Shown piece by piece: positions 10,046 through 33,317 of a DNA stretch of 34,214 nucleotides (position 1 is its first letter; every line of letters starts with the position of its first letter). Below the pieces are notes generated by a model. It did not search any database. It was not told the origin of the DNA and was given only the letters and a program-made list of their open reading frames with translations. The DNA comes from a virus, in the IMG/VR virus record IMGVR_UViG_3300013104_000054, positions 1 through 34,214 of that record; one strand, written 5' to 3'. A program made the position numbers and the translations under genes.

Positions 10046-10551
10046 AAATGAATATGCCAGTACAACACATTTTACAAGCGGTCGATTGGTCTAAATACAG
10101 TTTTGAAGAGTGGTGTCGTCAATTAGGAGCATGGCTCAACGGTGATACTGAAACAATGGTTAAAATTGTTAAAACCATGCCAACTAAACGCATCACTCAA
10201 AAACAACGTGAAAAATTAATGGCTATGTACATGAGTGATGAAACTTTAAAAGATCGCTTGTGTACTCGCCGTAAGGGTACTTGCTGTCAATTAAATGATA
10301 ATGAAGCACGTGCAATCCATAGATTGTTAATTGATCTACAATCTATAGATGATGAGATTCTTCAGGAATGGATTGGAGCAATCTGGTGGCATTATGTGAT
10401 GGGTGAGTCCATTCGGGATATTGCGAAGAGCAATGATACATATGGTTCACAAATCCAACAGGATATTAAATGTGGTTTAGCCTTTATCAAATCACGTTAT
10501 CCACATTTTCAAATTGAAAAATTTATAAAGATAACAAAAGAGGAGAATTAA
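10042..10551 (+). CDS. Q-like late antitermination protein (putative)
   Basis: A 169-residue protein, last gene of the rightward early operon and directly before a promoter-plus-terminator leader, the exact place of Q in lambdoid phages. The C-terminal part has a sigma-like helix-turn-helix (IRDIAKSNDTYGSQIQQDIK) preceded by LQEWIGAIWWHYVMGES, as in Q proteins of the phage 82 kind. The N-terminal part is Lys/Arg-rich (PTKRITQKQREKLMAMYM) with a cysteine cluster (CTRRKGTCC). It overlaps the nuclease stop by 4 bases. The Q role is inferred from position and HTH; I see no decisive motif. Confidence 0.65.
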   Translation: MKMNMPVQHILQAVDWSKYSFEEWCRQLGAWLNGDTETMVKIVKTMPTKRITQKQREKLMAMYMSDETLKDRLCTRRKGTCCQLNDNEARAIHRLLIDLQSIDDEILQEWIGAIWWHYVMGESIRDIAKSNDTYGSQIQQDIKCGLAFIKSRYPHFQIEKFIKITKEEN

Positions 10552-10556
10552 TCTTC

Positions 10557-10585
10557 TTGACTGTAAATACAGGGTATGGCATATT
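10557..10585 (+). promoter_or_regulatory. Candidate late promoter (PR'-like)
   Basis: TTGACT (10557-10562), a 17-base spacer and CATATT (10580-10585) lie directly after the Q-like gene. Transcription would start near 10592 and meet a leader hairpin and a terminator within 60 bases. This promoter-terminator arrangement is the hallmark of Q-controlled late transcription. Confidence 0.6.
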
Positions 10586-10593
10586 CGTGATAT

Positions 10594-10652
10594 AGTGTTC
10601 AAAGTGTAATTGAAACACTGGTATTAAAGCTCATCAAACGATGGGCTTTTTT
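10594..10652 (+). terminator. Late leader hairpin and terminator (tR'-like)
   Basis: First hairpin: AGTGTTCAA (10594-10602) with TTGAAACACT (10610-10619), one bulged base. Second: AGCTCATC-AAAC-GATGGGCT (10628-10647) followed by TTTTTTA, a standard intrinsic terminator. The same 20-base terminator core recurs at 11351-11370. Confidence 0.75.
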
Positions 10653-10716
10653 ATTTTCTTAAAATAACAACCTGATATAATTTAAATAACAAGTAGAACT
10701 AAGAGGCTTTTGAGAT

Positions 10717-11247
10717 TTGGATTCATTTTTTAAAATTAGTTTAGAGATTTTTAAGGTACTAACACCTTTTATTATTTCGTTAATTGTTTACTTAATTTGG
10801 CATAAGCAAAAAGAAAAAGAGGTTATTGCAACAGAAGCTAAGAATTCAATTGCTTTATTAAATGTAATGAGCACAAAGACGGATGAGTTATATCAATTAA
10901 TGGGCGCTATGATTGATACATTTCCCCCTATTAATCCTACTAAAGAAATGCTCAAAAACTTTAATGATAAAATAGATGAATTAGACAAAAAAAGGTTAGA
11001 AATATTTTATTCAGCTCTTTTTATCTGTGATGCTAAAAAGGATGTACCATTAGAAACTTATTTCGTGGAACAAGATTACGCATTTAAATCAACTATATCA
11101 AAGCTTAGAATTTTTTCTCAGGAAATAACCACTATAGAAGATGTTAATGAAACGAAACAATTAGCATTTGATTTTAATTATGCTTTGATAAGGGATAATT
11201 ATGCATATAAAAGAATTCTGTTGGAGATTGCATTGTACAGAAAATAG
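10717..11247 (+). CDS. Membrane-anchored moron protein
   Basis: A 176-residue protein from a TTG start (AGAGG 10 bases upstream). One transmembrane segment lies at about 9-28 (LEIFKVLTPFIISLIVYLIW), followed at once by a basic stretch (HKQKEKE) and a helical cytoplasmic part with no enzyme motif. It lies alone between two copies of the same terminator, is AT-rich and has no structural role in related phages. These traits fit a moron expressed independently of the lytic genes. Superinfection exclusion is possible but unproven. Its layout resembles the protein at 23512. Confidence 0.65.
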   Translation: MDSFFKISLEIFKVLTPFIISLIVYLIWHKQKEKEVIATEAKNSIALLNVMSTKTDELYQLMGAMIDTFPPINPTKEMLKNFNDKIDELDKKRLEIFYSALFICDAKKDVPLETYFVEQDYAFKSTISKLRIFSQEITTIEDVNETKQLAFDFNYALIRDNYAYKRILLEIALYRK

Positions 11248-11350
11248 TTGGAAAATAGTTTTATTGTTATAAATCAGTGTTATATTATGTATTTGATCAA
11301 CGTTGCAGTTCACTAAATAGATTAAAGATAACTAAGTTATATTTATAAAT

Positions 11351-11376
11351 AGCTCATCAAACGATGGGCTATTTTA
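11351..11376 (+). terminator. Terminator, copy of the late leader terminator
   Basis: AGCTCATCAAACGATGGGCT (11351-11370) is identical to 10628-10647 and is followed by ATTTTATT. It closes the moron unit at 10717-11247. Confidence 0.75.
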
Positions 11377-11421
11377 TTGTCTATGTTATATTTATCTTGA
11401 TAGATATAAGAGATTTAAGCC

Positions 11422-11619
11422 ATGGATATGGAAGAATACTATTTAGAATTTCCAGATCAAAATCCTGAAAACTTTGATGAGAATGGTAATTTAAAGGAAG
11501 AGGTAGCAATAGAAATAGCTTTAGAGAGAGATTTTTTCTATCTTGAAAAATTGCAGAAGGTAAAAGACATTCGTGAAGAACAGAAAGCTCTTTTACAAAA
11601 ACATAAAGGTCTTAAATAA
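11422..11619 (+). CDS. Small acidic protein
   Basis: A 65-residue protein, acidic in its first half (EEYYLEFPDQNPENFDENGN) and basic in its last (EEQKALLQKHKGLK), probably all helical after residue 25. It stands alone between two terminators and has a weak ribosome site (AGAG). I recognise no family. Confidence 0.55.
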   Translation: MDMEEYYLEFPDQNPENFDENGNLKEEVAIEIALERDFFYLEKLQKVKDIREEQKALLQKHKGLK

Positions 11620-11631
11620 TCCTCAAAATAC

Positions 11632-11649
11632 CTCCTTCGGGAGTTTTTC
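11632..11649 (+). terminator. Intrinsic terminator
   Basis: CTCC-TTCG-GGAG (11632-11643) with TTTTTCT following; a short stem closed by a stable UUCG-type loop. Confidence 0.7.
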
Positions 11650-11690
11650 TTTCATGTTATAGTCCAGCCTAATTAAAACTGGTCACTTAA

Positions 11691-11921
11691 ATGAATATCT
11701 GTATTGGCGGTGATTTAGACGGTGAAGTTGTAAATAACCGTGAAGGTACTTTCTTTGAAGCAAGTACAATTGATTCAAGTAAGCAATCAACCTATAACAG
11801 CCAGAGTTATAGAATTGGTGAAAATACATATCGGTTTTGGCTTTGTGCAGAATTGCCGTATATGGAAACAACAGAAATAGCCAGTAAGCATTTAGCTGAA
11901 AAATACAAATACCTTTCTTAA
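11691..11921 (+). CDS. Hypothetical small protein
   Basis: A 76-residue protein starting MNICIGGDLDGEVV, with strand-forming segments (YRIGENTYRFWLCAELPYME) and a C-terminal helix (TEIASKHLAEKYKYL). The MNICIGGDLDG opening is common in small Acinetobacter phage proteins of unknown function. No clear ribosome site is visible. It is closed by its own terminator and so is a separate unit from its neighbours. Confidence 0.6.
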   Translation: MNICIGGDLDGEVVNNREGTFFEASTIDSSKQSTYNSQSYRIGENTYRFWLCAELPYMETTEIASKHLAEKYKYLS

Positions 11922-12035: not shown

Positions 12036-12641
12036 ATGGTTACTACTCCAAAGCAAGCAACAATCGAAACTTTAACTGACACAAACTTGCCAGCAGGTCA
12101 TACGGTATTGGTAAAGATTGCCGATACGACTAGCTATGACCAAGTGCTGAGTAATGTTGAGGCAATTAATGCATTACCCGGCTTTACTGTCATTGGTGTA
12201 ACAAGTCTTCCGAATCCTCCAGCTTCTGACTGGTATTTGGATAACTGTACATTTGAAAATGGTGTTTTAACTCCAGTAGGTGAGCCGTTAGATTTCGGTA
12301 CACCTGAAGCACCACTGATTATGTACGGTTATCATGCAGCGACTAAAGCTAATATTGGCGATACGCTTGAAGTTGTGGCTGAGAATTTCTTAAGTGCTAC
12401 AGGTAATGTCCATAGCGGTGTTCGTTTGCAGACTACATTCGATAGCTATGATTTAGGTGGTTCGAATATTGGTTATAACAATACTGTAGATGGCAATAAC
12501 GACTTCTTTTCATTGTTAGATACTTTGTTCCAAACGCAAGCTTTGCCAGTTAAGTATTCAATGAAATACGTCTCTGCTACAGAAATTGAGCATGTGATTA
12601 CTTCGGTTGATGGTTTAACTGAAATTCATCGTTATAACTAG
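12036..12641 (+). CDS. Hypothetical beta-rich protein ending at an amber codon
   Basis: A 201-residue protein with ribosome site AGGAAAC. The N-terminal ~60 residues form a short domain (GHTVLVKIADTTSYDQVLSN, GFTVIGVTSLPNPPA). The remainder is beta-rich and low in Lys, like a virion surface or decoration domain (APLIMYGYHAATKANIGDTL, NVHSGVRLQTTFDSYDLGGS). The frame stops at a TAG, but beyond it 34 more sense codons run on in frame with the same composition. The present stop therefore looks like a recent nonsense mutation or a suppressible stop. No signal peptide. Function unknown. Confidence 0.65.
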   Translation: MVTTPKQATIETLTDTNLPAGHTVLVKIADTTSYDQVLSNVEAINALPGFTVIGVTSLPNPPASDWYLDNCTFENGVLTPVGEPLDFGTPEAPLIMYGYHAATKANIGDTLEVVAENFLSATGNVHSGVRLQTTFDSYDLGGSNIGYNNTVDGNNDFFSLLDTLFQTQALPVKYSMKYVSATEIEHVITSVDGLTEIHRYN

Positions 12642-12746
12642 ACTATTCCAGCTTTCTCAGAAGACGTTTACTTCAATATCACTCTTGTTTGCCAAAATAG
12701 TGATGAAGTGATTCCAACGACTATTAATGTGATTCGAGCTGTTTAA
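12642..12746 (+). other. In-frame continuation after the amber stop
   Basis: Thirty-four codons after the TAG at 12639-12641 encode TIPAFSEDVYFNITLVCQ and then NSDEVIPTTINVIRAV, ending in TAA. The strand-like pattern matches a C-terminal beta domain, and a terminator follows the second stop rather than the first. The intact ancestor was probably about 236 residues. Confidence 0.6.
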
Positions 12747-12769
12747 TAATTATTAAAAAGCAGAATTTG

Positions 12770-12805
12770 AGCTCCACTTGATTAGCTGATTGAGTGGGGC
12801 TTTTT
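12770..12805 (+). terminator. Intrinsic terminator
   Basis: AGCTCCACT pairs with AGTGGGGCT (one G-T pair) around a 14-base loop, then TTTTT. Confidence 0.75.
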
Positions 12806-12886
12806 AAATAAGTAACTCAAAATATGATATATAAATTAATCTTTATATCCATAATTACTAAAGTAAGAAAGTTTGTTAGTTAAATG

Positions 12887-12943
12887 TTCGATAAGCCATA
12901 TCGAATGTTGTAATTAGAAGAAGAAGAAATTTTTTGATATCTT
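12887..12943 (+). promoter_or_regulatory. Inverted repeat and extended -10 promoter of the 12974 gene
   Basis: TTCGATA-AGCCA-TATCGAA (12887-12905) is a perfect 7-bp inverted repeat and a possible operator. TGATATCTT (12935-12943) is an extended -10 within TTTTTTGATATCTTT, a 15-mer that also occurs before the accessory cassette at 29264-29278. Transcription would start near 12950. Confidence 0.45.
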
Positions 12944-12973
12944 TTATTAAATATGAATTATTTGGAAAATTTT

Positions 12974-13213
12974 ATGAATTACAAAGTGAATGAGTTGATT
13001 CTGGCAAGAAGAGATAAGGATTTAAAGTTTGTATTTGAAGTATTAATGAAGAATGTAGAAAACGATCATTACTTAATAAATCCAAATGTAAAATACAAAA
13101 TTGATGATTATCACGATGCTGTTTTTTACTTCGAGTTTGATGGTGATTTAAGCAAGCAAGATGAATTAGATCTTGATGCTGCATGGAGAGATTTCTGCAG
13201 CAAGAATGTTTGA
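12974..13213 (+). CDS. Hypothetical small acidic protein
   Basis: A 79-residue protein (MNYKVNELILARRDKDLKFV, then DDYHDAVFYFEFDGDLSK). The ATG at 12953 is in frame, but it lies about 3 bases after the predicted transcript start and has no ribosome site. The ATG at 12974 has GGA 8 bases upstream and is preferred. The C-terminal ~40 residues are acidic. It is a single-gene unit that converges with the minus-strand gene at 13276. No family recognised. Confidence 0.58.
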   Translation: MNYKVNELILARRDKDLKFVFEVLMKNVENDHYLINPNVKYKIDDYHDAVFYFEFDGDLSKQDELDLDAAWRDFCSKNV

Positions 13214-13237
13214 AAAAAACCACGAATCTATAAAAGT

Positions 13238-13266
13238 AGATATGATTGTTAAATACAACCATATCT
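13238..13266. repeat. Dyad between convergent genes
   Basis: AGATATGATTGT (13238-13249) and ACAACCATATCT (13255-13266) pair over 12 positions with one mismatch. There is no T run on either side. It lies exactly between convergent genes and may slow polymerases from both directions or protect RNA ends. Confidence 0.55.
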
Positions 13267-13275
13267 AATGAAAGA

Positions 13276-13524
13276 TTAATCAAATAAAAGAAAGGTCTCT
13301 GATTGTAGAATTTGGGTTAATTTATGTGATGGGTATTCTTCTTTTAATCGTTCCCAAAGAGGGTGAAATCGATTTGTATATAATTGATCAATATTAATAG
13401 ATTGTATCTCCTTACTTTCGGAGAGAAGTTTCAATAACTCTTCATTTTCATTATTGCTTTCATTTTCTTTGTTAAATACGAAATATTTACCATTATTTTG
13501 TAATTGATTCAATGAGATAAGCAT
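13276..13524 (-). CDS. Minus-strand small protein within the late region
   Basis: An 82-residue acidic protein (MLISLNQLQNNGKYFVFNKE, NENEELLKLLSESKEIQSIN). The ATG at 13524 has AGG about 8 bases upstream; a longer frame starts at a TTG with no ribosome site. It is the only gene between PR and the end of the window on this strand. It must therefore have its own promoter and could be expressed in the lysogen, like many morons. Function unknown. Confidence 0.55.
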   Translation of the reverse strand: MLISLNQLQNNGKYFVFNKENESNNENEELLKLLSESKEIQSINIDQLYTNRFHPLWERLKEEYPSHKLTQILQSETFLLFD

Positions 13525-13566
13525 AAGATACCTATAAGTTAATTTAAAGTTGAAGATTATACTCAA

Positions 13567-13740
13567 TTTTACTATTTTAGAATCTATTAGACTTTAAGAT
13601 GATTGTTAGGAGTTTTTCAATTCTTATACAGCTAAGTATTAGGACATCACAGGCTAATTCACTTATAAAAGTATTGCTAATAGTAGCGGTGATTTTAATA
13701 CTTTAGGCTCGCAATTAAAGCCTATTTAAAATAAAATAAT
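13567..13740. other. Gene-poor gap with inverted repeats
   Basis: No gene seen. AAAGTATT (13668-13675) and AATACTTT (13697-13704) form a perfect 8-bp inverted repeat. A weak hairpin, TAGGCT (13704-13709) with AGCCTA (13719-13724), ends in TTT. Promoters for both flanking, outward-facing genes probably lie here. Confidence 0.4.
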
Positions 13741-13770
13741 TTGTTCAATAATCATAAGCTTGGTAAATAT

Positions 13771-13944
13771 ATGTTCCTTCAGCATGAAAATTATTTCATT
13801 AATAAAGACAAGATTCGTTATTTTCACATCGATGTAGATAATCTTAAAGTAACAGTAAACTTTTCAAAAGATGAGTTTTATATAGCAGAATTCAAAGATA
13901 GACGTGATCTTGATTACTTTATTGCCCAACTACGTAAACAATAA
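13771..13944 (+). CDS. Small hypothetical protein
   Basis: A 57-residue protein starting MFLQHENYFINKDKIRYFHI, with alternating strands (VDNLKVTVNFSKDEFYIAEF) and a C-terminal helix (RRDLDYFIAQLRK). A TTG ten codons earlier (13741) is also in frame; neither has a strong ribosome site. The pattern, three strands and a helix, recurs in small Acinetobacter phage proteins upstream of the terminase. Closed by its own terminator. Confidence 0.55.
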   Translation: MFLQHENYFINKDKIRYFHIDVDNLKVTVNFSKDEFYIAEFKDRRDLDYFIAQLRKQ

Positions 13945-13951
13945 ATCTACT

Positions 13952-13974
13952 AACCGCCTTCGAGCGGTTTTTTT
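13952..13974 (+). terminator. Intrinsic terminator
   Basis: AACCGC-CTTCGA-GCGGTT with a run of T reaching 13974; the next ATG is at 13986. Confidence 0.82.
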
Positions 13975-13985
13975 ATGGAAGAGAT

Positions 13986-14462
13986 ATGGACGATAAAGAA
14001 TACTTTTGGTTTACAAGAAAAAAAGAGCCCAAAACTAAACCCAAAAGTAGACCTTTGCCTAAAGCTACACAGAAGTACCTAGAGGCAGAAGAAGAACTTA
14101 GTGAAGTTTTAGATAATCTGGGAATTAAGTATGAAAAGAAATTCCAGTTTAAGTCTACAAAGCATTGGCGTTTTGATTTTCATTTAATTGAACATCGTAT
14201 TTTAGTTGAAATTGCTGGTGGCCCTTGGTCTGGCGGTCGTAAGGGCAAGCTTAGAAATAAAGCTTGGAGTCTTGATCGTTACGATGTGGCTGAAGAGATG
14301 GGCTACACCGTAGTTCGCATTGAGACAGCGGCAAGGCATCGGATAGATGAGTCTGGACCGCCACAGATGCGAAAAGATTACGCTAGCCAATGGCTTAAGA
14401 ATTTGAAGAGGCAAATATTTAATGGATCAGATCAGACCATTCCCACCAACGGACTTTATTGA
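13986..14462 (+). CDS. Putative small nuclease, paralogue of the 9653 gene
   Basis: A 158-residue protein with ribosome site GGAAGAG. The core WRFDF (61-65), RILVEIAGG (71-79) and WSGGR (81-85) lines up without gaps against the core of the 9653 protein, 14 of 25 positions identical. D64 and E75 are kept, but the second acidic residue of that protein (E76) is an alanine here (A77), so activity may differ. A basic N-terminal extension (RKKEPKTKPKSRPLPK) is new. It overlaps the metallopeptidase gene by 41 bases, close to the terminase. A Vsr/DUF559-like nuclease that trims or nicks phage DNA is the best guess. Confidence 0.68.
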   Translation: MDDKEYFWFTRKKEPKTKPKSRPLPKATQKYLEAEEELSEVLDNLGIKYEKKFQFKSTKHWRFDFHLIEHRILVEIAGGPWSGGRKGKLRNKAWSLDRYDVAEEMGYTVVRIETAARHRIDESGPPQMRKDYASQWLKNLKRQIFNGSDQTIPTNGLY

Positions 14463-18458: not shown

Positions 18459-19553
18459 ATGGCTAAAGATAATAAAAATCTTTTGGAGGTACTCACTCAA
18501 CATCAGGCTTATCTTTATCGTGCTTCTTCGCAATCAGTAAATGAATTATTGGGTTTATTCAATAATGATACGAATGCAATGCTTTCAAAGCTTCGCGATT
18601 TATTGGATGAACTTAGTGATTCAGAAAAGATTGCTTTAGCTGGAGGCAAATACACAACTCCAAACCATAAGGAAATAAGAGATTTAATTTCTCAATGGTT
18701 TAGTAGTGTAAATACCAGCTTACCTGAAGCATTCGCCGTTTCAGCTACAGCGATGGCCGTTTATGAAGCAAACTACATAGCAAAATTATACGGCGCAAAG
18801 ATTAGTAAGCCTGATGGTGAAAAACTGTTTTCAGCAGCAAAAAAAGTTCCCTTGGCTGGTGGTGCTTTAGTTGATGATCTTTTATCAAGAATTGCAGAAA
18901 GTGCTCGCCAGAAAGTTGAATACGCGATTCGTGATGGAATCAGCACAGGTAAAACAAACCAAGAAATTATTCAGCGTATTCGCGGTACCAAACGCCTTAA
19001 TTTCGAAGATGGTCTTTTAAACAGCACTAAATCTGATATTGACCGGACTGTTCGAACTATACGAAGCCATGTGGCTAATCAAGCCTATCTAGACAGCTAT
19101 AAGAAAATTGGCTTTGAATATGTTCGATTTGTTAGTGTCTTGGATGGTAGGACCTCAAAGCTATGTGCGTCATTGGATGGAACAATATGGAAAATTAACG
19201 ACCCATCTAAACGTGTACCGCCGTTACATCCACATTGCCGAAGCATTTTGGTACCAGTTGATAAAGATGGTCGCCTTGCTGGAGAGCGTCCGTTTGTCAT
19301 GGACGAACGACCAGTGAAAGACATCCCCAAAGATGAGCGCAGTCAGTTAATCGGGCAACTGGACGCAAACACCACATTTAAAGAGTTCTTCAAAAAGACT
19401 GATGACTTTTTCCAAAAAGAGTGGCTTGGGCCAAAGAGGTACAAACTTTATAAAGAAGGGAAGTTTGATTTTGATAAATTTTATGATCCGGAGGGAAAAT
19501 TATACACTTTAGAGGAGTTAAAGATTCTAGATGAAAAAATAACTAATATATGA
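18459..19553 (+). CDS. Minor head protein (Mu gpF-like)
   Basis: A 364-residue head morphogenesis protein. The conserved MuF core lies at about 190-270: ANQAYLDSYKKIGFEYVRFV, LDGRTSKLCASLDGTIW and PPLHPHCRSILVPV, with the Cys/His residues typical of the family. A helical N-terminal region (residues 1-180) probably binds the portal. The C-terminal ~80 residues are charged and look like a variable extension. The protein is packaged in the head in small numbers. GGGTG precedes the ATG. Confidence 0.88.
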   Translation: MAKDNKNLLEVLTQHQAYLYRASSQSVNELLGLFNNDTNAMLSKLRDLLDELSDSEKIALAGGKYTTPNHKEIRDLISQWFSSVNTSLPEAFAVSATAMAVYEANYIAKLYGAKISKPDGEKLFSAAKKVPLAGGALVDDLLSRIAESARQKVEYAIRDGISTGKTNQEIIQRIRGTKRLNFEDGLLNSTKSDIDRTVRTIRSHVANQAYLDSYKKIGFEYVRFVSVLDGRTSKLCASLDGTIWKINDPSKRVPPLHPHCRSILVPVDKDGRLAGERPFVMDERPVKDIPKDERSQLIGQLDANTTFKEFFKKTDDFFQKEWLGPKRYKLYKEGKFDFDKFYDPEGKLYTLEELKILDEKITNI

Positions 19554-19618
19554 ATCTTGCCTTAAAAGTGATAATTATATATTTTATAATTTATTTAATT
19601 GTTTGGTGCTTTATATAA
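19550..19618 (+). CDS. Possible 22-residue hydrophobic peptide
   Basis: The ATG overlaps the TGA of the MuF-like gene, and the TAA overlaps the ATG of the next membrane protein (TAATG). The product, MNLALKVIIIYFIIYLIVWC followed by FI, is wholly hydrophobic. There is no separate ribosome site, so translation would rely on coupling. It may be a real micropeptide or only a relay that couples the moron to the upstream gene. Confidence 0.35.
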   Translation: MNLALKVIIIYFIIYLIVWCFI

Positions 19619-20115
19619 TGAAAAAGCTTGAAGAAATATCCAGAAATAATAAATTGCTCAGAGAAATAATTATTTCTGAATTTATTATTGTATCAATTAT
19701 TTATCTAGTCGTAATATCGATGACGTACTATTTGGAAGGAGTGAAAGGTATTGATAAATTAATTAATTCATCAAATGACCAGTTTGGTTTAACGCCTATA
19801 ATTGCAACCGTAATTAATTTTGTAATTGGTTTAGTTTTTTTAATTCTTTATCGTTATTTTAACTTTGCATTTAAAAGCACCTTAATGGGGGTATCTGAGG
19901 CACTTCTAGATACATTCACAACATTATTTAGACTTTCTGGTGGTATTTTAATTGGTTTTGCAATTATCTATTTTTTAGAAGTTAGATATGAACACATATT
20001 AATCGTGTTTTTAATATATGGAATAATTTCCGTCTTTAATTCATCTTTTTTAGTATTTTTCAAAAGAAAGATGTATCAAAAGCCAGATAGGGAATTAAAA
20101 AGAATGCCCTATTAA
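19618..20115 (+). CDS. Four-span membrane protein (moron)
   Basis: A 165-residue integral membrane protein with about four spans (near 18-38, 60-80, 105-122 and 126-147) and a basic C-terminus (FKRKMYQKPDRELKRMPY). It is much more AT-rich than the head genes around it and separates MuF from the scaffold, which are neighbours in related phages. It is closed by a strong terminator. The ATG is preferred over a TTG five codons upstream because it forms the TAATG junction. No family recognised; an envelope function in lysogens is possible. Confidence 0.65.
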   Translation: MKKLEEISRNNKLLREIIISEFIIVSIIYLVVISMTYYLEGVKGIDKLINSSNDQFGLTPIIATVINFVIGLVFLILYRYFNFAFKSTLMGVSEALLDTFTTLFRLSGGILIGFAIIYFLEVRYEHILIVFLIYGIISVFNSSFLVFFKRKMYQKPDRELKRMPY

Positions 20116-23105: not shown

Positions 23106-23474
23106 ATGGGCTTACGCGATGAACTTCAGGCAGATCTTGCTGAAGCATTTAATGAAGATCTGGAGGACACCGTTCATTCTTTTACATGTGAGCGGATTTC
23201 TAAAACGAATTGGGATCCTAAGACAGAAACTCATGTTGAAGTTAAAGAAAACTATACTGGTCGTGGTGTTCTGTTTGGATCATACAGTCAATATGAGATT
23301 CAGACACTTGGAGTACTAGCCACAGATAAAAAAGCGACTGTGCTTCAAAATGAAGTGACAATGGACCCTAAAATTGAGGATGAATGGGTAACAGCCTTAG
23401 GCTCATTTAGAGTTATTCATATTCAGCAGGATCCTATCTCTACTATTTGGAAATGCCAGTTGAGGAAGGTTTAA
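23106..23474 (+). CDS. Head-tail joining (stopper) protein
   Basis: A 122-residue beta-rich protein (VHSFTCERISKTNWDPKTET, YTGRGVLFGSYSQYEIQTLG, KATVLQNEVTMDPKIEDEWV). Size, fold type and order between adaptor and neck/tail genes fit the stopper that closes the head channel. Homologues are sometimes named glutamate 5-kinase in public records; nothing in this sequence supports a kinase. Confidence 0.7.
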   Translation: MGLRDELQADLAEAFNEDLEDTVHSFTCERISKTNWDPKTETHVEVKENYTGRGVLFGSYSQYEIQTLGVLATDKKATVLQNEVTMDPKIEDEWVTALGSFRVIHIQQDPISTIWKCQLRKV

Positions 23475-23511
23475 ATACTTGGTCTAATATCCTTCTAAAA
23501 TAGGAGGGTAT

Positions 23512-24177
23512 ATGGTTAAAAATGATTTAAAAGTAAAAATAAGAAGGATCTGGAAATGGACTTTTATTGGAATAATAATTTTTTTAGTAATCTCCTTCTT
23601 TCTGAAAAGTTCATACCCAATTACCCACTATAAATTCAATTTATCTGATGCTTATGAAGTTCTAAAAGATACTTTAACTTTAGCTGCTGGCTTTTTAGCT
23701 CCTGTTGCTGCATTTGTTCTTTTTAGTGACTGGAGAGAGCAACATGTATTAGTAAATAATGAAAAAATAAGTAAGGAAATTTTAAATATTTTAGATGAGT
23801 TTTATGAGTTCTATAATTTACATTTTGGATATGTGCTAGAAAATGATGAGTTTTATAAAAAGCAGTATTTGTATTTCCAGAAGATAAATTATTTAGCTGA
23901 AAAAAAAGCTGAAATAAATGCAAAAGATCAAGTTGCTAAAGATTTCCTTGTTCAGCTAAAAGAAATTCAAATACTTTTACCAACTTACTGGATTTTATTC
24001 ACTGAAGAAGTGAGGGCGTATCAAGATTTTCAAAAATTTCATGAACCCCAGACAGTTCTAGCTAAAGGTCTTTCGGATAGTTATAGCAATAAACATATTA
24101 ATGCTCAAAGTAAAAAGTTTAATGTACAAAAAGAGATTATTGAAAAAAGAAATAAGTTATCAATTTTATATGTATGA
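23512..24177 (+). CDS. Two-span membrane protein (moron)
   Basis: A 221-residue protein with an excellent ribosome site (AGGAGG). Spans lie near 13-31 (WKWTFIGIIIFLVISFFL) and 52-72 (LTLAAGFLAPVAAFVLFSDW), with a long helical cytoplasmic part after WREQH. It is AT-rich, interrupts the connector-neck series and has its own terminator, so it is a moron. Its layout (span, then Trp plus basic residues, then helices) resembles that of the 10717 protein. Function unknown; a membrane-based exclusion protein is one option. Confidence 0.65.
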   Translation: MVKNDLKVKIRRIWKWTFIGIIIFLVISFFLKSSYPITHYKFNLSDAYEVLKDTLTLAAGFLAPVAAFVLFSDWREQHVLVNNEKISKEILNILDEFYEFYNLHFGYVLENDEFYKKQYLYFQKINYLAEKKAEINAKDQVAKDFLVQLKEIQILLPTYWILFTEEVRAYQDFQKFHEPQTVLAKGLSDSYSNKHINAQSKKFNVQKEIIEKRNKLSILYV

Positions 24178-24190
24178 AAATCTTATTTTT

Positions 24191-24212
24191 AACCCACTTC
24201 GGTGGGTTTTTT
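24191..24212 (+). terminator. Intrinsic terminator
   Basis: AACCCAC-TTCG-GTGGGTT followed by T; closes the membrane moron. Confidence 0.85.
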
Positions 24213-24236
24213 AATGGGTGCGAGTTAGGAGGGTAG

Positions 24237-24644
24237 ATGATAAGCACAGATTATGTGCCTTTATGGCATATCTCACCATTTCAACATGTTCAATACACAG
24301 TTGCTAGAAATCAAATGCATATGGATCTGTTATTTGAGGACATGAATAAGGTTGACCCGTTTATGTCTGTAGAAGGCGCAGCGGCTCAAGTCAGTTACTA
24401 TTCCGATGGTGCCTATGCAGTTGTTCAGTTGGGCGATACCTCAGAAAGAAAATTGATAGAGATCTATGGTTTGCTTTTACATGAAGCTGTTCATGTTTGG
24501 CAGAAGGTTAAGAAGCTCATGGGAGAAAAAGAGCCTAGCTCAGAATTTGAAGCTTATTCAATTCAAGCGATCGCTCAAGACCTTTTTAAAATGTATGAAG
24601 AAAGCGAGGTGAATAATGGGATGGGAGGGGAAAAGGCCAACTGA
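24237..24644 (+). CDS. Small HExxH metallopeptidase-like protein
   Basis: A 135-residue protein with GGAGG before the ATG. The motif H82-E83-A-V-H86 in LLLHEAVHVWQ, followed by E105 in SEFEAYSIQAI, is the zinc-binding and third-ligand pattern of gluzincin-like metalloproteases. The N-terminal part (VPLWHISPFQHVQYTVARNQ) is beta/alpha. It overlaps the neck-protein gene by 29 bases, so it is part of the structural operon. It may be a phage maturation protease or a virion-associated peptidase; no substrate is known. It is distinct in sequence from the metallopeptidase at 14422. Confidence 0.68.
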   Translation: MISTDYVPLWHISPFQHVQYTVARNQMHMDLLFEDMNKVDPFMSVEGAAAQVSYYSDGAYAVVQLGDTSERKLIEIYGLLLHEAVHVWQKVKKLMGEKEPSSEFEAYSIQAIAQDLFKMYEESEVNNGMGGEKAN

Positions 24645-29177: not shown

Positions 29178-29206
29178 TTGACGTCAGCGAAGGTAGTAGA
29201 TATATT
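29178..29206 (+). promoter_or_regulatory. Strong sigma70 promoter before the accessory cassette
   Basis: TTGACG (29178-29183), exactly 17 bases, TATATT (29201-29206); start expected near 29213, two bases before a terminator hairpin. Confidence 0.7.
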
Positions 29207-29347: not shown

Positions 29348-30061
29348 ATGTCATCTAGTCCATTGGTTGAGGTGGTTTTTGAAATTAGATTTAAGCCGCA
29401 AAGTAATTTTGCTACTGAATTGCTGATTTCTTTAAACCAAGTATTTTCTAACCATTTAGACATTGTTCAACAAGATGGCTTACAATTTCCAATTGATTTA
29501 AAAAATCAGCAACCTGATTTACATTATGTTCCATCCTACAAAGTCAATTTTCCAGATTTTTCGTTGCTCATTTCTGATGGTTCATTTGTTGTACTAAAGC
29601 ATACAATTGATGTACCTTATGATGGATGGGTCAATTTTAGAAATATTCCAATCAGAATTTTGCAAATTTTGAAAATTAAAAATAAAATTGCAGATATTCA
29701 ACGATATTCAATAAAGTATACTAATTTGATTCAAGATCATGAAAACTTTAAAAATTTGAATTTAACGATTTATCTTGGCTCTGAGAAGCTTGAAGGCAAT
29801 AAAAAGTTTTCATTAAGAACTGAAGAGAAAGAAGGTAATTTTGCTATTTTGAATGAAGTCTCTTCCCATGTGGATATGGAAGTTTCAAATGATATAGATA
29901 ATACACAAAGAGTTTACTCAGGAATATTATTAGTTATTGACATTATTAATACTCAAGGTATAAAAAATATTAATGATGTTGATAATGAGTTTTCTGAAAC
30001 TTTAGATGCACTTCATGAGATAGCTTTACAAAAATATTCTAATATTTTTAATGAAGGGTAA
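29348..30061 (+). CDS. TIGR04255-like protein, first gene of accessory cassette
   Basis: A 237-residue protein. The opening SSSPLVEVVFEIRFKP matches my memory of TIGR04255, a family of sporadically distributed bacterial proteins without a firm function. Strand-rich segments (PSYKVNFPDFSLLISDGSFV, YDGWVNFRNIPIRI) follow, and then a helical C-terminus (NDVDNEFSETLDALHEIALQ). I see no catalytic motif. Very AT-rich. AAAGG lies 9 bases before the ATG. It is 12 bases from a small membrane protein gene and, with it and the 30418 gene, forms one unit closed by a terminator. The family call is from memory and would need a profile search. Confidence 0.7.
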   Translation: MSSSPLVEVVFEIRFKPQSNFATELLISLNQVFSNHLDIVQQDGLQFPIDLKNQQPDLHYVPSYKVNFPDFSLLISDGSFVVLKHTIDVPYDGWVNFRNIPIRILQILKIKNKIADIQRYSIKYTNLIQDHENFKNLNLTIYLGSEKLEGNKKFSLRTEEKEGNFAILNEVSSHVDMEVSNDIDNTQRVYSGILLVIDIINTQGIKNINDVDNEFSETLDALHEIALQKYSNIFNEG

Positions 30062-30073
30062 AGGAGAGAAGTT

Positions 30074-30397
30074 ATGAGTAGTTTAAAACTTAATAGATCT
30101 GTAGCTCCGACTTTAACTGGTGTTATTATTGCTACTGCGTTGGGCAGTTTCTCTATAGCAGACAAGATTAATAATTTTTATACACCCAATGTTCATGAAT
30201 TAACGCAGAACACTGCGCATTTGAGTAATAGATTTATTACTGAAACTTTTACCTCGGTAGATGTGAGAGAAACGAATTTAAATGAGTCATTAGACAATAT
30301 GTTAATAGATTTATTTGAGAAAATTTCGTTAAATGCTAAACCCTTAGAAGAAGATCTTGCAAAACTTCTTTCTGAAAACTTTATTGATTTATTTTAA
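30074..30397 (+). CDS. Small membrane-anchored protein of the accessory cassette
   Basis: A 107-residue protein with one hydrophobic segment near 9-27 (SVAPTLTGVIIATALGSFSI) and a soluble, acidic helical remainder (SLDNMLIDLFEKISL, PLEEDLAKLLSENFIDLF). It has a good ribosome site (AAAGGAG). The hydrophobic part is short for a lipoprotein signal and has no lipobox, so a membrane anchor is more likely. It lies between the TIGR04255-like and SNTCDI genes with gaps of 12 and 20 bases, so it is surely co-expressed and perhaps acts as the membrane partner of a complex. Confidence 0.68.
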   Translation: MSSLKLNRSVAPTLTGVIIATALGSFSIADKINNFYTPNVHELTQNTAHLSNRFITETFTSVDVRETNLNESLDNMLIDLFEKISLNAKPLEEDLAKLLSENFIDLF

Positions 30398-30417
30398 ATT
30401 TTTTTAAGGGTCTTGGT

Positions 30418-31050
30418 GTGAGTGTTGCTGAAAATTTTACAGATTTATTACCTAACTATTTAAGTGATGCTACAAGAAAAACACTTGAATTTAATTTAAA
30501 AGATTTTTCGACTAATCAAAGGATTACTCAAGACCCGTTTACTTCTTTTAAAAATGATTTCTTTTTACAAGGGGATATTGTTAGTAATGTTCCATATCCT
30601 TATTGGGAAGGTGATCAATTTAAAACAACATCTGCACCACGCTGTATTATCCTTAGTAATACTTGCGATATAGATGAAAGAAATTCAAGAAGCATACCTA
30701 TGGATTGTATACTTGCACCTATAATCAGTGTAGAAAAATATGAAAAACGTATGTTAGCAAATGGATATGGTACAGAAAGAGTTGATCAATTTCTTTTAAA
30801 TGTTAAGAAATATCAAACTACTAATTTATTTCATTTACCCATTAATGAGAATGGTGAATATGAGCCTCATGGTAAGGGTTATATCGTAGCTTTGGATAAA
30901 GCTTTTTCCTTACCAAGAAGTTTATTAAATGTGAAACAGCATTTAAAGTCTTTGAATCAGTTTTTCTCATATTTGTTTACTTTTCACTTATCACTACATT
31001 TATGTCGATTTCACGATAAAGTAGATCGCAATACGAATGTCTGTTATTAG
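30418..31050 (+). CDS. ILSNTCDI-motif protein, third gene of accessory cassette
   Basis: A 210-residue protein from a GTG start (AAGGG upstream). It holds LQGDIVSNVPYPYW (50-63) followed by APRCIILSNTCDIDERNSR (73-91), with C83 and D84. Compact Ser-x-x-Cys-Asp motifs after a GDI segment are seen in a group of bacterial proteins I know only as uncharacterised. Later strands (TTNLFHLPINENGEYEPHGK, GYIVALDKAFSLPRS) look like a beta-barrel. The C-terminus is helical and aromatic. The conserved Cys and Asp may be catalytic or metal-binding. A terminator follows. Confidence 0.68.
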   Translation: MSVAENFTDLLPNYLSDATRKTLEFNLKDFSTNQRITQDPFTSFKNDFFLQGDIVSNVPYPYWEGDQFKTTSAPRCIILSNTCDIDERNSRSIPMDCILAPIISVEKYEKRMLANGYGTERVDQFLLNVKKYQTTNLFHLPINENGEYEPHGKGYIVALDKAFSLPRSLLNVKQHLKSLNQFFSYLFTFHLSLHLCRFHDKVDRNTNVCY

Positions 31051-31063
31051 TTTTTTTAAATTA

Positions 31064-31086
31064 AACCACCTTAGGGTGGTTTTTTA
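31064..31086 (+). terminator. Intrinsic terminator closing the three-gene cassette
   Basis: AACCACC-TTAG-GGTGGTT followed by TTTTTT, 13 bases after the stop of the ILSNTCDI gene. Confidence 0.83.
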
Positions 31087-31175
31087 ATATCTATCTTTTC
31101 CTAATATATGGTTTTGTGTAAGATACAAACTATAAATAATTAATTTTAATAACTTTATATTTGATCGGGGAAAGT

Positions 31176-31484
31176 ATGTTTGAAAAGCTTTTAGATAAGT
31201 TGTGGGCATTAAATGATGTCTTTGAAGAATATCCCAAAGTCTTTTATTTAATGATGGTTTATCTAGTATTGATGGTTGCAGTGGTCTTTCTTTTCTTTTC
31301 GTGTTTAAAGTGGCTTGCGAACCTCCAAATCCTAAATACTTATCCTTTATATGAACTTATATTAAGAAACTTTGACACACTCCGCTGGGGAGTGGTTGTA
31401 TTACCATTGCTTATTGCAGTTCATGGTTTCTTTGAAGTGATTGGGCTGCATGATCGTTTAAAAAAGAGAAGATACGGAAGATGA
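31176..31484 (+). CDS. Two-span inner-membrane protein
   Basis: From the ATG with ribosome site GGGGAAA, 102 residues. Hydrophobic spans lie near 24-46 (YLMMVYLVLMVAVVFLFFSC) and 70-88 (WGVVVLPLLIAVHGFFEVIG), with a basic tail (RLKKRRYGR). It overlaps the following lipoprotein gene by 4 bases (ATGA), so the two are probably made together and may act together in the envelope. This pair is common in Acinetobacter siphophages near the tape measure; its role is not known to me. Confidence 0.68.
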   Translation: MFEKLLDKLWALNDVFEEYPKVFYLMMVYLVLMVAVVFLFFSCLKWLANLQILNTYPLYELILRNFDTLRWGVVVLPLLIAVHGFFEVIGLHDRLKKRRYGR

Positions 31485-31825
31485 GAAATTCAACTTTTTT
31501 ATCTTCCTGTTTGGTGATCTCTTTAACTTTAGTTAGCTGCACTAAACAAGTGGAAAATAAGTCACTTCCACCTTCAGTTGAAGCGCAATTCATGAGTGCG
31601 GATCAACAAATAGGAAAGATGCTCGATGATTTAAATAGTCAAAATGTTCTACTCGATCAGAAGCGGGAGATATTGTGCAAGACCTATCCTGAGGTCTACA
31701 AAAAACAGTACATGCCAGCTCTACTTAAGCTTTCTCCTAAAGTATATACAAAGGAAGCTCTATTAAGAGATTATGAGGCTGTGATTAGTTTTTATAAAAA
31801 AACTTTTGTCGTTAATTGTGGTTGA
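31481..31825 (+). CDS. Small lipoprotein
   Basis: A 114-residue protein with a lipoprotein signal (SSCLVISLTLVSC, modified Cys about 20) and a soluble helical domain (SADQQIGKMLDDLNSQNVLL, KYPEVY-like YKKQYMPALLKLSPKVYTKE). The mature form has two further cysteines (C67 and C113) that could form a disulfide. It is translationally coupled to the two-span membrane protein. Candidates are an entry-exclusion lipoprotein or a lysis-related outer-membrane protein; the sequence does not decide. Confidence 0.72.
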   Translation: MRNSTFLSSCLVISLTLVSCTKQVENKSLPPSVEAQFMSADQQIGKMLDDLNSQNVLLDQKREILCKTYPEVYKKQYMPALLKLSPKVYTKEALLRDYEAVISFYKKTFVVNCG

Positions 31826-31912
31826 TTTTTATCACTTAAGGATTTAATAGTATATAGCTTACTTTAACAAGTATTCGACAATATCATTTTAAATTCTTAC
31901 AGGTGAAAATTT

Positions 31913-32068
31913 GTGTCAAATCAAACAAAATTCATATTAGGTTCAGTAATTGTCATAATGTTTATTGCAGGTTCTAACTATTTTAAAGATTTAAATTTAT
32001 TAAACTTCGGACAAAAAGCTGGGACCTCAGCCGGAAAAGAGATTAATAGAAACATGAATAACAATTAA
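31913..32068 (+). CDS. 51-residue single-span membrane protein
   Basis: A GTG-started frame with ribosome site AGGTGA 6 bases upstream. Product: MSNQTKFILGSVIVIMFIAG, SNYFKDLNLLNFGQKAGTSA, GKEINRNMNNN. One hydrophobic segment lies at about 7-24 and a polar, Asn-rich tail follows. A terminator starts in its stop codon, which supports it as a real unit. No family recognised. Confidence 0.6.
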   Translation: MSNQTKFILGSVIVIMFIAGSNYFKDLNLLNFGQKAGTSAGKEINRNMNNN

Positions 32069-32087
32069 ACCACCTTCGGGTGGTTTT
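32068..32087 (+). terminator. Intrinsic terminator
   Basis: AACCACC-TTCG-GGTGGTT then TTCCTT; it begins in the stop codon of the 51-residue protein. The T tract is broken, so it may be leaky. Confidence 0.72.
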
Positions 32088-32153
32088 CCTTAATGTGACA
32101 TTTAGTAACCAGTTTGTTAAAGTTGGTACACTTTATAACAAATGGTGAAATTC

Positions 32154-32663
32154 ATGAAAAAATTATTGGCTGCGGGTTTATTAAGTCTTGGATTAGTTGG
32201 GTGCGCTACAACATCAGGGTTGGCTCCCAAAGTAACTACAAGCGGATTTGATGGGTCAAAAAGAGTTTCAATTGATGGTCACGGTGTTGCATGTGATCAA
32301 ATGGCTTGTCCTTTAATAGGTGCAATTTGGTCAAGTAATAATCCAAATCTTGTAGGCTTAAAGATTTCAGTTATAAATACAATTGTTTCTATAAATTCAG
32401 TCGATTTAAATATAGATGGTGAAATAATTAAATTAAGAGAAAACACCTTAACAGATTTTTCAACTGGTACTTTATTAGAGTCTAGCAAAGTATTCGTTAC
32501 TGATTTATCCGTAGTGGATAAAATTATTAATTCCAAAAAAGCTTGGATTCGAGTGAATACGAGCAAAGGATTAATAGAAAACCCTATTATTGATGGTACT
32601 AAAGATAGCAAGGCTTATCACGCTTTAAAGCGGTTTAAAGATCAAGTAAATACTGCTAAGTAA
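32154..32663 (+). CDS. Lipoprotein
   Basis: From the ATG with GGTGA upstream, 169 residues starting MKKLLAAGLLSLGLVGCATT, a textbook lipoprotein signal with lipobox LVGC. The mature part is beta-rich (KRVSIDGHGVACDQMACPLI, LVGLKISVINTIVSINSVDL), with a Cys pair (C47 and C52 in VACDQMAC) that could form a disulfide or bind metal. A start four codons earlier is possible but lacks a ribosome site. Similar lipoproteins are common in Acinetobacter prophages; role unknown. Confidence 0.74.
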   Translation: MKKLLAAGLLSLGLVGCATTSGLAPKVTTSGFDGSKRVSIDGHGVACDQMACPLIGAIWSSNNPNLVGLKISVINTIVSINSVDLNIDGEIIKLRENTLTDFSTGTLLESSKVFVTDLSVVDKIINSKKAWIRVNTSKGLIENPIIDGTKDSKAYHALKRFKDQVNTAK

Positions 32664-32735
32664 TTTACTTATATATAAAACTTTGGATTGACTTAATAAA
32701 TATTTAAGCAGCGTTTTTACAGAATTAAGGTGTTT

Positions 32736-33317
32736 ATGAGAAATATTATTGCATGTTGTTTACTGGTTTATTGCCCATTAGTTAGCGCAGAAATACCTTT
32801 TGGTCTTAAAGCGGGAATGTCTTTAAATGAGATAAAGAAATTTGATGCTAAGCCAATAGAGCTGGGTGATGGAAATTTTATTATTAAAAATGTTCCAAAG
32901 CCATATGATGGTTTTAAAGATTATGTCGTCAAAGTTTCACCAGCGATAGGTTTGTGTAAGGTCGTAGGCTGGGGTAAGCCTGTAAAAACAAGTGTATATG
33001 GTGATGGACTATCTTCTGAATTCGATTCAGTTAAGAGTGGATTAACTACAAAATATGGTGCTCCAAATGGGGATTATAACTTCCTGAAAGCAAAAAGCAT
33101 CTGGAGTCAACCAAATGAATGGATGATGGGGTTGTATAAGGAGGAGCGAATTTTAGCTGCGACTTGGGAGCCAAAAGAACCAAATGGTGTCAAAAATATC
33201 ATGTTAAAAGCAAAAGCAAAAAGTACCAATGAAGGTTATATTACAGTTGCATATGAGTTTTTTAATACGGAATCTTGTTATAAAGAACAAAAAGTAAAAG
33301 ACATAAGTGGTTTGTAA
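32736..33317 (+). CDS. Secreted periplasmic protein
   Basis: A 193-residue protein with a Sec signal (MRNIIACCLLVYCPLVSA, cleavage after VSA about residue 18). The mature domain is alpha/beta: IPFGLKAGMSLNEIKKF is reminiscent of periplasmic proteins that begin with a FGLKxGMS segment, followed by GLCKVVGWGKPV and a region (SEFDSVKSGLTTKYGAPNGD) with an amphipathic helix. AAGG lies about 6 bases before the ATG; a GTG two codons earlier is also in frame. A terminator follows. Function unknown. Confidence 0.7.
   Translation: MRNIIACCLLVYCPLVSAEIPFGLKAGMSLNEIKKFDAKPIELGDGNFIIKNVPKPYDGFKDYVVKVSPAIGLCKVVGWGKPVKTSVYGDGLSSEFDSVKSGLTTKYGAPNGDYNFLKAKSIWSQPNEWMMGLYKEERILAATWEPKEPNGVKNIMLKAKAKSTNEGYITVAYEFFNTESCYKEQKVKDISGL

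Follow-up and report, generated by a model that had tools for sequence, protein, structure and literature searches.

The locus at positions 29348-31050 of the IMG/VR virus record IMGVR_UViG_3300013104_000054 raises the question of what three short A/T-rich genes are doing in the genome of a temperate Acinetobacter phage, which is the carrier of this cassette. The whole stretch of DNA that was analysed, 34,214 nucleotides of this record, is referred to as the window. Gene 1 (29348-30061, encoding P1, 237 residues), gene 2 (30074-30397, encoding P2, 107 residues) and gene 3 (30418-31050, GTG start, encoding P3, 210 residues) are all on the + strand. In the list of open reading frames (ORFs) of the window they are separated by gaps of 12 and 20 bp and form one co-directional unit, with the coordinates and gaps that the initial annotation gave. 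The unit is conserved in distant phages and bacteria, P3 has a predicted MazF/PemK-like fold, the TIGR04255 family of P1 is used in a modular manner, and the unit occupies accessory positions in temperate phages. With a confidence that is only a little better than even, we read the cassette as a self-contained, three-component toxin-antitoxin-like module for exclusion or abortive infection, carried as accessory cargo of the prophage, by which the dormant virus probably protects its host cell or itself from other viruses.

A conserved unit of three genes

Two gene 3 scans yielded 52 chromosomal loci or loci from metagenome-assembled genomes (MAGs) and 38 viral loci, all of which were searched with profiles built from ten relatives. 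A full set in the order P1-P2-P3, with all genes on one strand, is present in 81 of these 90 loci (44 of the 52 and 37 of the 38, respectively, many of the viral loci being near copies of each other, such as the E. coli group L073-L081), and the intergenic gaps are of 40 bp or less in all but three loci. Most of the loci where the complete order was not obtained lie at the end of a contig, hold a broken copy, or have the same layout with genes too divergent for the P1 and P2 profiles. The hosts include Acinetobacter, E. coli prophages, Pseudomonas, Burkholderiaceae, Rhodobacterales, Desulfobacterota, Bacteroidota, Ignavibacteria, Verrucomicrobiota and Fibrobacter. The same layout is found in Bacilli-like MAGs (L062, L065, and L066), with proteins of 244-258, 93-95, and 199-200 residues, of which the first is too divergent for the gene 1 profile. 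All three genes are therefore found together in distant bacteria and viruses, and not solely within this phage group, the restriction that had been named as speaking against an accessory system. The initial annotation is also supported in reading the genes as a single accessory unit with no structural role.

An 8-nt overlap of genes 1 and 2 is frequent, as is a 4-nt overlap of genes 2 and 3, which suggests translational coupling. The tree distances of the three proteins are correlated (Spearman coefficients of 0.72 for P1-P3, 0.49 for P2-P3, and 0.34 for P1-P2, each reached in 0 of 500 permutations), a correlation that could equally come from shared operon descent alone. One copy of the operon is located on a small circular Phocaeicola plasmid. 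Broken copies with split ORFs occur in chromosomes and in one prophage (L061, L063, L064, and L085), suggesting that the operon is costly, or that it is lost once it is not needed.

Predicted properties of the three proteins

P3 matches phrog_4575 over its full length (E 2.5e-61, residues 4-206 on positions 7-208 of 209), and the GDIVSN and ILSNTCDI stretches that had been singled out in this protein are both present as written. No family of known function was found for P3 in Pfam, NCBIfam, and PADLOC, and its homologues gave chance matches only in the same three libraries. PF02452 gave no match among 62 aligned members of the P3 family, and a profile search against the PDB sequences returned nothing useful. 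The AlphaFold2 model of P3, obtained from 61 sequences with one row from a plasmid collection left out of the alignment, has a pLDDT of 88 and a pTM of 0.82. When this model was searched against the PDB with Foldseek, matches 1-18 were all MazF/PemK proteins (best E 2.2e-4). The first 16 of these have probabilities of 0.99-1.00 and TM-scores, by MazF length, mostly of 0.6-0.7 over the whole MazF domain. In the viral structures, PemK-like proteins are among the top matches of the fold search, none of them below E 0.001. In the model, a MazF-like core carries approximately 50 extra N-terminal residues, which are helical, and a further helical element inserted behind the third main strand. This points to the use of a MazF-like scaffold by P3, as modelled, yet P3 is not classed as a member of the MazF family.

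Across the 61 sequences, the invariant or near-invariant residues of P3 are S80, N81, C83, D84, N89, R91, P94, P101, D160, R197, and R204. That SN[TS]CD is invariant is in part a consequence of the search, given that the peptide patterns of the two gene 3 scans contain this motif, and a pattern-free profile search for P3 still recovers it in the matches inspected.

P1 matches TIGR04255, the NCBIfam entry sporadTIGR04255, with 87.8 bits (E 9.6e-25, cut-off of 30 bits, residues 2-229 on positions 3-238 of the 252 of the profile) and phrog_5464 with an E of 6e-59, and is by its sequence a full-length member of both families. The PLVEVVFEIRF signature at its start, on which the initial annotation had based TIGR04255, is therefore upheld as a sign of family membership. 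The AlphaFold2 model of P1 has a pLDDT of 91, and its best fold matches are the TATA-binding protein and the AdoMetDC prozyme, with an E of approximately 1e-4 and low TM-scores (0.3). Given that these scores are low, what is claimed from the model is limited to a helix-grip-like, duplicated sheet architecture. There is no SecB among the 50 fold matches listed for this model, a profile search of P1 against the PDB sequences returned nothing useful, and to call P1 a chaperone would be conjecture.

P2 was characterised by homologue alignment, hydrophobicity, and charge bias as a protein with a hydrophobic N-terminal stretch and an acidic C-terminal tail. The stretch covers residues ~12-29 and is of borderline strength, with a Kyte-Doolittle mean of 1.71 over 17 residues. 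In 94% of 69 distinct P2 homologues, the most hydrophobic 17 residues begin within the first 35 residues. The median Kyte-Doolittle value of the stretch in these homologues is 1.62, which is modest when compared with shuffled sequences (median shuffle p of 0.12), and their mean charge is +0.65 before the stretch and -0.99 after it, which corresponds to a positive-inside bias. The best conserved part of P2 is the acidic tail, which ends with NFIDLF in the window and has the form xNxWDL(Y/I/F) in the family. From the earlier description of P2 as a protein with one membrane segment and an acidic part, the acidic tail was confirmed, while the hydrophobic stretch, borderline by hydrophobicity, is a possible membrane segment. 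Two further assignments of P2 were rejected. A PADLOC match to a CBASS phospholipase (E 2.6e-4 over 65 residues) corresponds to only 11.8 bits against a cut-off of 200 in NCBIfam, and also fails on size, since P2 has 107 residues and no catalytic domain while patatin-like phospholipases have approximately 320-330 residues. The match to a CdiA tRNase (E 0.042) is far under the cut-off.

The hydrophobic stretch bears on a Rex-like explanation, in which P2 would be an inner-membrane protein that damages the membrane once P1 and P3 sense an infection. Its constant place in the homologues and the positive-inside bias agree with this, as does the position of the cassette directly downstream of CI in Pseudomonas phages, which is the place of rexAB in lambda. 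Nonetheless, the hydrophobicity is borderline, it is the tail of P2 that is best conserved, and in three operons of another type (L208, L219, and L242) a similar hydrophobic stretch is followed by a helix-turn-helix domain, which has a cytoplasmic function. This explanation is considered improbable. The initial proposal that the membrane protein is the effector is also unlikely, given that the predicted effector is P3, with its MazF/PemK fold, and that P2 fits better as an adaptor or antitoxin-like partner.

Modular partners and genomic positions

Among 398 genomes of the phylum to which Acinetobacter belongs, TIGR04255 was detected in 30 and P3 in eight. TIGR04255 was also detected in 16 of 296 genomes from the phylum of L031 (Bacteroidota) and in 20 of 246 from that of L052. 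For 49 of the 53 TIGR04255 genes taken with their flanks, two more co-directional ORFs come next within 120 bp, and a few of these sets are likely chance neighbours (e.g., L241). The third gene is of the SNTCD type of the window in L223, L250, and L251, and a true PemK/MazF (Pfam PemK_toxin, best E 1.1e-18) in three operons that span two phyla, Pseudomonadota and Bacteroidota, where the middle gene encodes an acidic protein of 95-104 residues (L162, 2676-4051; L224, 1479-2858; and L225, on the reverse strand). Upstream of the operon in L162 there is a gene that, by its TSDHGYA motif as seen by eye, resembles a PglZ-type (BREX-like) protein. The third gene is HEPN-like in L212, L221, and L233, with an SRAYYA motif and one match to PADLOC HEPN_IX (E 4.9e-6). 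It encodes a DUF7689 protein in one member by profile and in L245 by its sequence, and it is HicA-like, by eye, in L243.

A larger third protein with QG and [ST]xxC is mostly found behind a helix-turn-helix middle gene. This middle gene is present in L202, L203, L208, L218, L219, L236-L239, L242, and L244, and QG and [ST]xxC are kept in the ten third genes that were aligned; they are possibly a larger relative of the SNTCD MazF-fold family. In a large group the third gene is uncharacterised and encodes 130-180 residues, in many cases behind a middle gene with an NWDG motif. Operons of this NWDG type include L199, L206, L209, L213-L217, L222, L228, L246, and others, and the C-terminal part of the middle gene product matches the PADLOC candidate PDC-M32A in L215, L217, and L246.

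The TIGR04255 gene is constant across these operon types, while genes 2 and 3 vary together. Such a pattern would arise, we infer, with P2 as the cognate partner of P3 and with P1 as a shared sensor or scaffold. We tentatively propose a wider possibility, namely a large and so far unrecognised superfamily of modular systems for immunity or exclusion, each with three components. TIGR04255 would be its shared sensor, which a middle protein that differs between systems would couple to exchangeable and mostly RNA-directed effectors (SNTCD MazF-fold, MazF/PemK, HEPN-like, HicA-like, and others). The phage cassette would be one member, with a MazF-fold effector that has a new Cys-Asp active site. 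If this wider pattern is true, TIGR04255 could be used as a marker to uncover many related phage and bacterial systems.

With respect to position, the unit lies directly downstream of the CI repressor, on the CI strand, in Pseudomonas phages (VW-6S, L092, and L098), and, in E. coli prophages, between the antiterminator Q and the holin, on the strand that does not carry the late genes. The E. coli operon is present in 92 of 5426 complete genomes at 99% identity or more, and in the one genome inspected it is within a prophage, which is lambda-like (strain ACN002, NZ_CP007491.1, 278864-280591, L288; proteins WP_000907077.1, WP_125282403.1, and WP_001542079.1). At the cos end of the P2-like phage Dobby the unit lies upstream of portal, and in L097 and L100 it adjoins integrases. 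In the window it occupies the slot between the tail chaperone and the tape measure. The same slot holds a regulator pair in Acba_15, with the same layout in Ab11510-phi, and a ribonuclease-annotated gene together with a BRO-type gene in vB_AbaS_Ftm. Such phage positions are where temperate phages keep lysogeny and rival-exclusion genes (phage morons, rexAB), and the description of the cassette as accessory agrees with them. The tail genes in the window are 80-95% identical to 44 Acinetobacter phages, and P1 and P3 are encoded by no Acinetobacter phage of the collection compared, including the relatives with the same tail genes.

These placements make it highly improbable that the cassette consists of ordinary phage metabolism or virion accessory genes with no role in conflict. 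Its place among tail genes in the window would suit such genes, but elsewhere the unit is found at unrelated genome positions and in chromosomes of several phyla, and related Acinetobacter phages with the same tail genes are without it.

Many chromosomal copies have no phage gene among their nearest neighbours and are scattered among housekeeping genes. This scatter and the copy on the Phocaeicola plasmid would both fit a plain addiction module, in which P3 would be a toxin, P2 would neutralise it, P1 would stabilise the set, and loss of the prophage would kill the cell, exclusion not being its role. The MazF fold of P3 and the small acidic gene placed before the toxin gene, as in type II systems, also speak for this explanation, but it needs one more conserved gene than is found in simple type II systems, and the sites by CI and by Q and the holin suit exclusion at least equally. 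We regard plain addiction as unlikely.

For the exclusion or abortive-infection module that we favour, the following mechanism can be proposed. In lysogeny all three proteins would be produced together. P3 would be the effector, probably acting on RNA or translation; since it lacks the usual Arg/Thr pair and conserves SN[TS]CD in its place, its chemistry would differ from that of standard MazF. The connector would be P2, with its acidic C-terminal tail likely contacting P3, in the way that the tail of MazE holds MazF, and its hydrophobic N-terminus likely contacting P1 or the membrane. P1, constant across many operon types, is likely a sensor or holdase that would keep the complex quiet. Interference with P1 or P2 by an incoming phage would release P3, halting growth and, with it, the infecting phage.

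Several observations weigh against this proposal. The comparison by hhalign of the P3 profile with 19 MazF sequences was not significant (probability of 2.2%), so that the kinship with MazF rests on the predicted structure; the short stretch that was aligned, GYIVALDKAFSLPRS with SWVDCAQLRVVALER, is the one that the fold predicts. The positions of the catalytic residues of MazF (the Arg of RP before the strand 2 core and the Thr at the end of strand 3, located with the two families aligned by eye) are variable in the 61 P3 sequences, at ~74-76 and ~103-104, and P3 may therefore be non-catalytic. A true membrane segment with a positive-inside bias would place the tail of P2 outside the cytoplasm, disfavouring contact between P2 and P3. 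No PADLOC model covers P1, P2, or P3. The chromosomal flanks are mixed and mostly made of ordinary genes; among 144 flanking ORFs, considered with no control set, some methyltransferase and RtcR matches were obtained, each in two members at most. From the initial suggestion of a defence, exclusion, or toxin-immunity set, the single accessory unit stands, while the defence function itself is what we infer, given the lack of a PADLOC model and the mixed flanks.

The unit in the window carries signals of its own, as had been noted. A promoter-like site, TTGACG-17-TATATT (29178-29206, + strand), is present ~140 bp upstream of gene 1, identified by consensus scan only with 10 of 12 positions matching, and promoter-like sites are scarcer in the scanned region than in shuffled sequence. 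An intrinsic terminator (31063-31082, + strand) is located 12 bp downstream of gene 3, with an 8-bp stem containing four G-C pairs, a 4-nt loop, and a T tail; terminator-like sites number 5 in the scanned region versus 1.4 expected. Each gene is preceded by a purine-rich stretch resembling a ribosome-binding site (AAAGG, AAAGGAG, and AAGGG for genes 1, 2, and 3, respectively). These signals bear on the idea of an anti-defence or host-takeover cassette, in which P3 would bind RNA or a host toxin and shield the phage during lytic growth. A MazF fold without the standard catalytic residues could serve as a decoy, and the cassette genes are co-directional with the late genes in the window. Nonetheless, the cassette has its own promoter-like site and terminator, in E. 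coli prophages it runs against the late genes, and many of its chromosomal copies are away from phage genes, which leaves this idea with a low probability.

The cassette has a GC content of 29.1%, against 41.3% for the tail genes to its left, 33.2% for the genes to its right, and 37.1% for the window. The reported excess of A/T relative to tail genes on both sides is therefore marked on the left only, the genes on the right being accessory genes and not tail genes. These right-hand neighbours (31161-33317) encode small membrane or lipoprotein-like proteins with no Pfam family above the cut-off, and look like further accessory cargo in the same slot between the tail chaperone and the tape measure. 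A second stretch as rich in A/T as the cassette is found at ~12.1-14.1 kb of the window (12100-14100), and others at 10200-11700, 23400-24300, and 19500-20100; in these four stretches the GC fraction goes down to ~0.25-0.30 and the ORFs have no Pfam match. They are possibly other accessory cargo.

Comparison with known systems

P1 and P3 match TIGR04255, PHROG 5464, and PHROG 4575 far above noise, and these entries are family labels without function, none of which mentions an operon of three genes, a MazF fold for P3, or modular partners. In the literature searched, nothing was found on the function of these three families or of PDC-M32, and TIGR04255 and the PHROG numbers are not named there. 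The three-gene operon is likewise not described in that literature, and Rst_3HP (DefenseFinder, prophage-borne) is a possible earlier description of it. The fixed operon with a MazF-fold gene 3 brings these families, so far without function, into one testable system. In three TIGR04255 operons of another type, it is the middle gene that matches PDC-M32A, over the C-terminal third of the latter; PDC-M32 (PDC-M32A/B) is itself a PADLOC candidate, and P1-P3 of the window have no match to it.

In several Pseudomonas phages the cassette lies immediately downstream of CI, as RexAB does in lambda. RexAB has two genes while the cassette has three, and no sequence relation was found in any library searched. 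RexB is polytopic, whereas the cassette has at most one weak membrane stretch, in P2, and the models of P1 and P3 are soluble folds.

The likeness to MazEF/PemIK (PF02452) lies in the MazF fold of the P3 model, in the small acidic protein encoded just upstream, and in the fact that true PemK genes occupy the third place in three sister operons. P3, however, has 210 residues, a helical extension and an insert, no Pfam match, and no conservation of the catalytic Arg/Thr, and the cassette has a third gene, TIGR04255.

In CmdTAC, for which an anti-phage role has been demonstrated, newly made capsid protein strips the chaperone from the complex, and degradation of the antitoxin then releases the toxin (PMC11618068). 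The constant component of such TAC systems is a SecB-like chaperone, and given that P1 is not SecB-like, the comparison covers the logic of the systems and not membership. In that logic the likeness is found in the three genes, with one constant component and exchangeable toxins that include RNases, and in an antitoxin-like middle partner with a hydrophobic stretch (PMC11618068).
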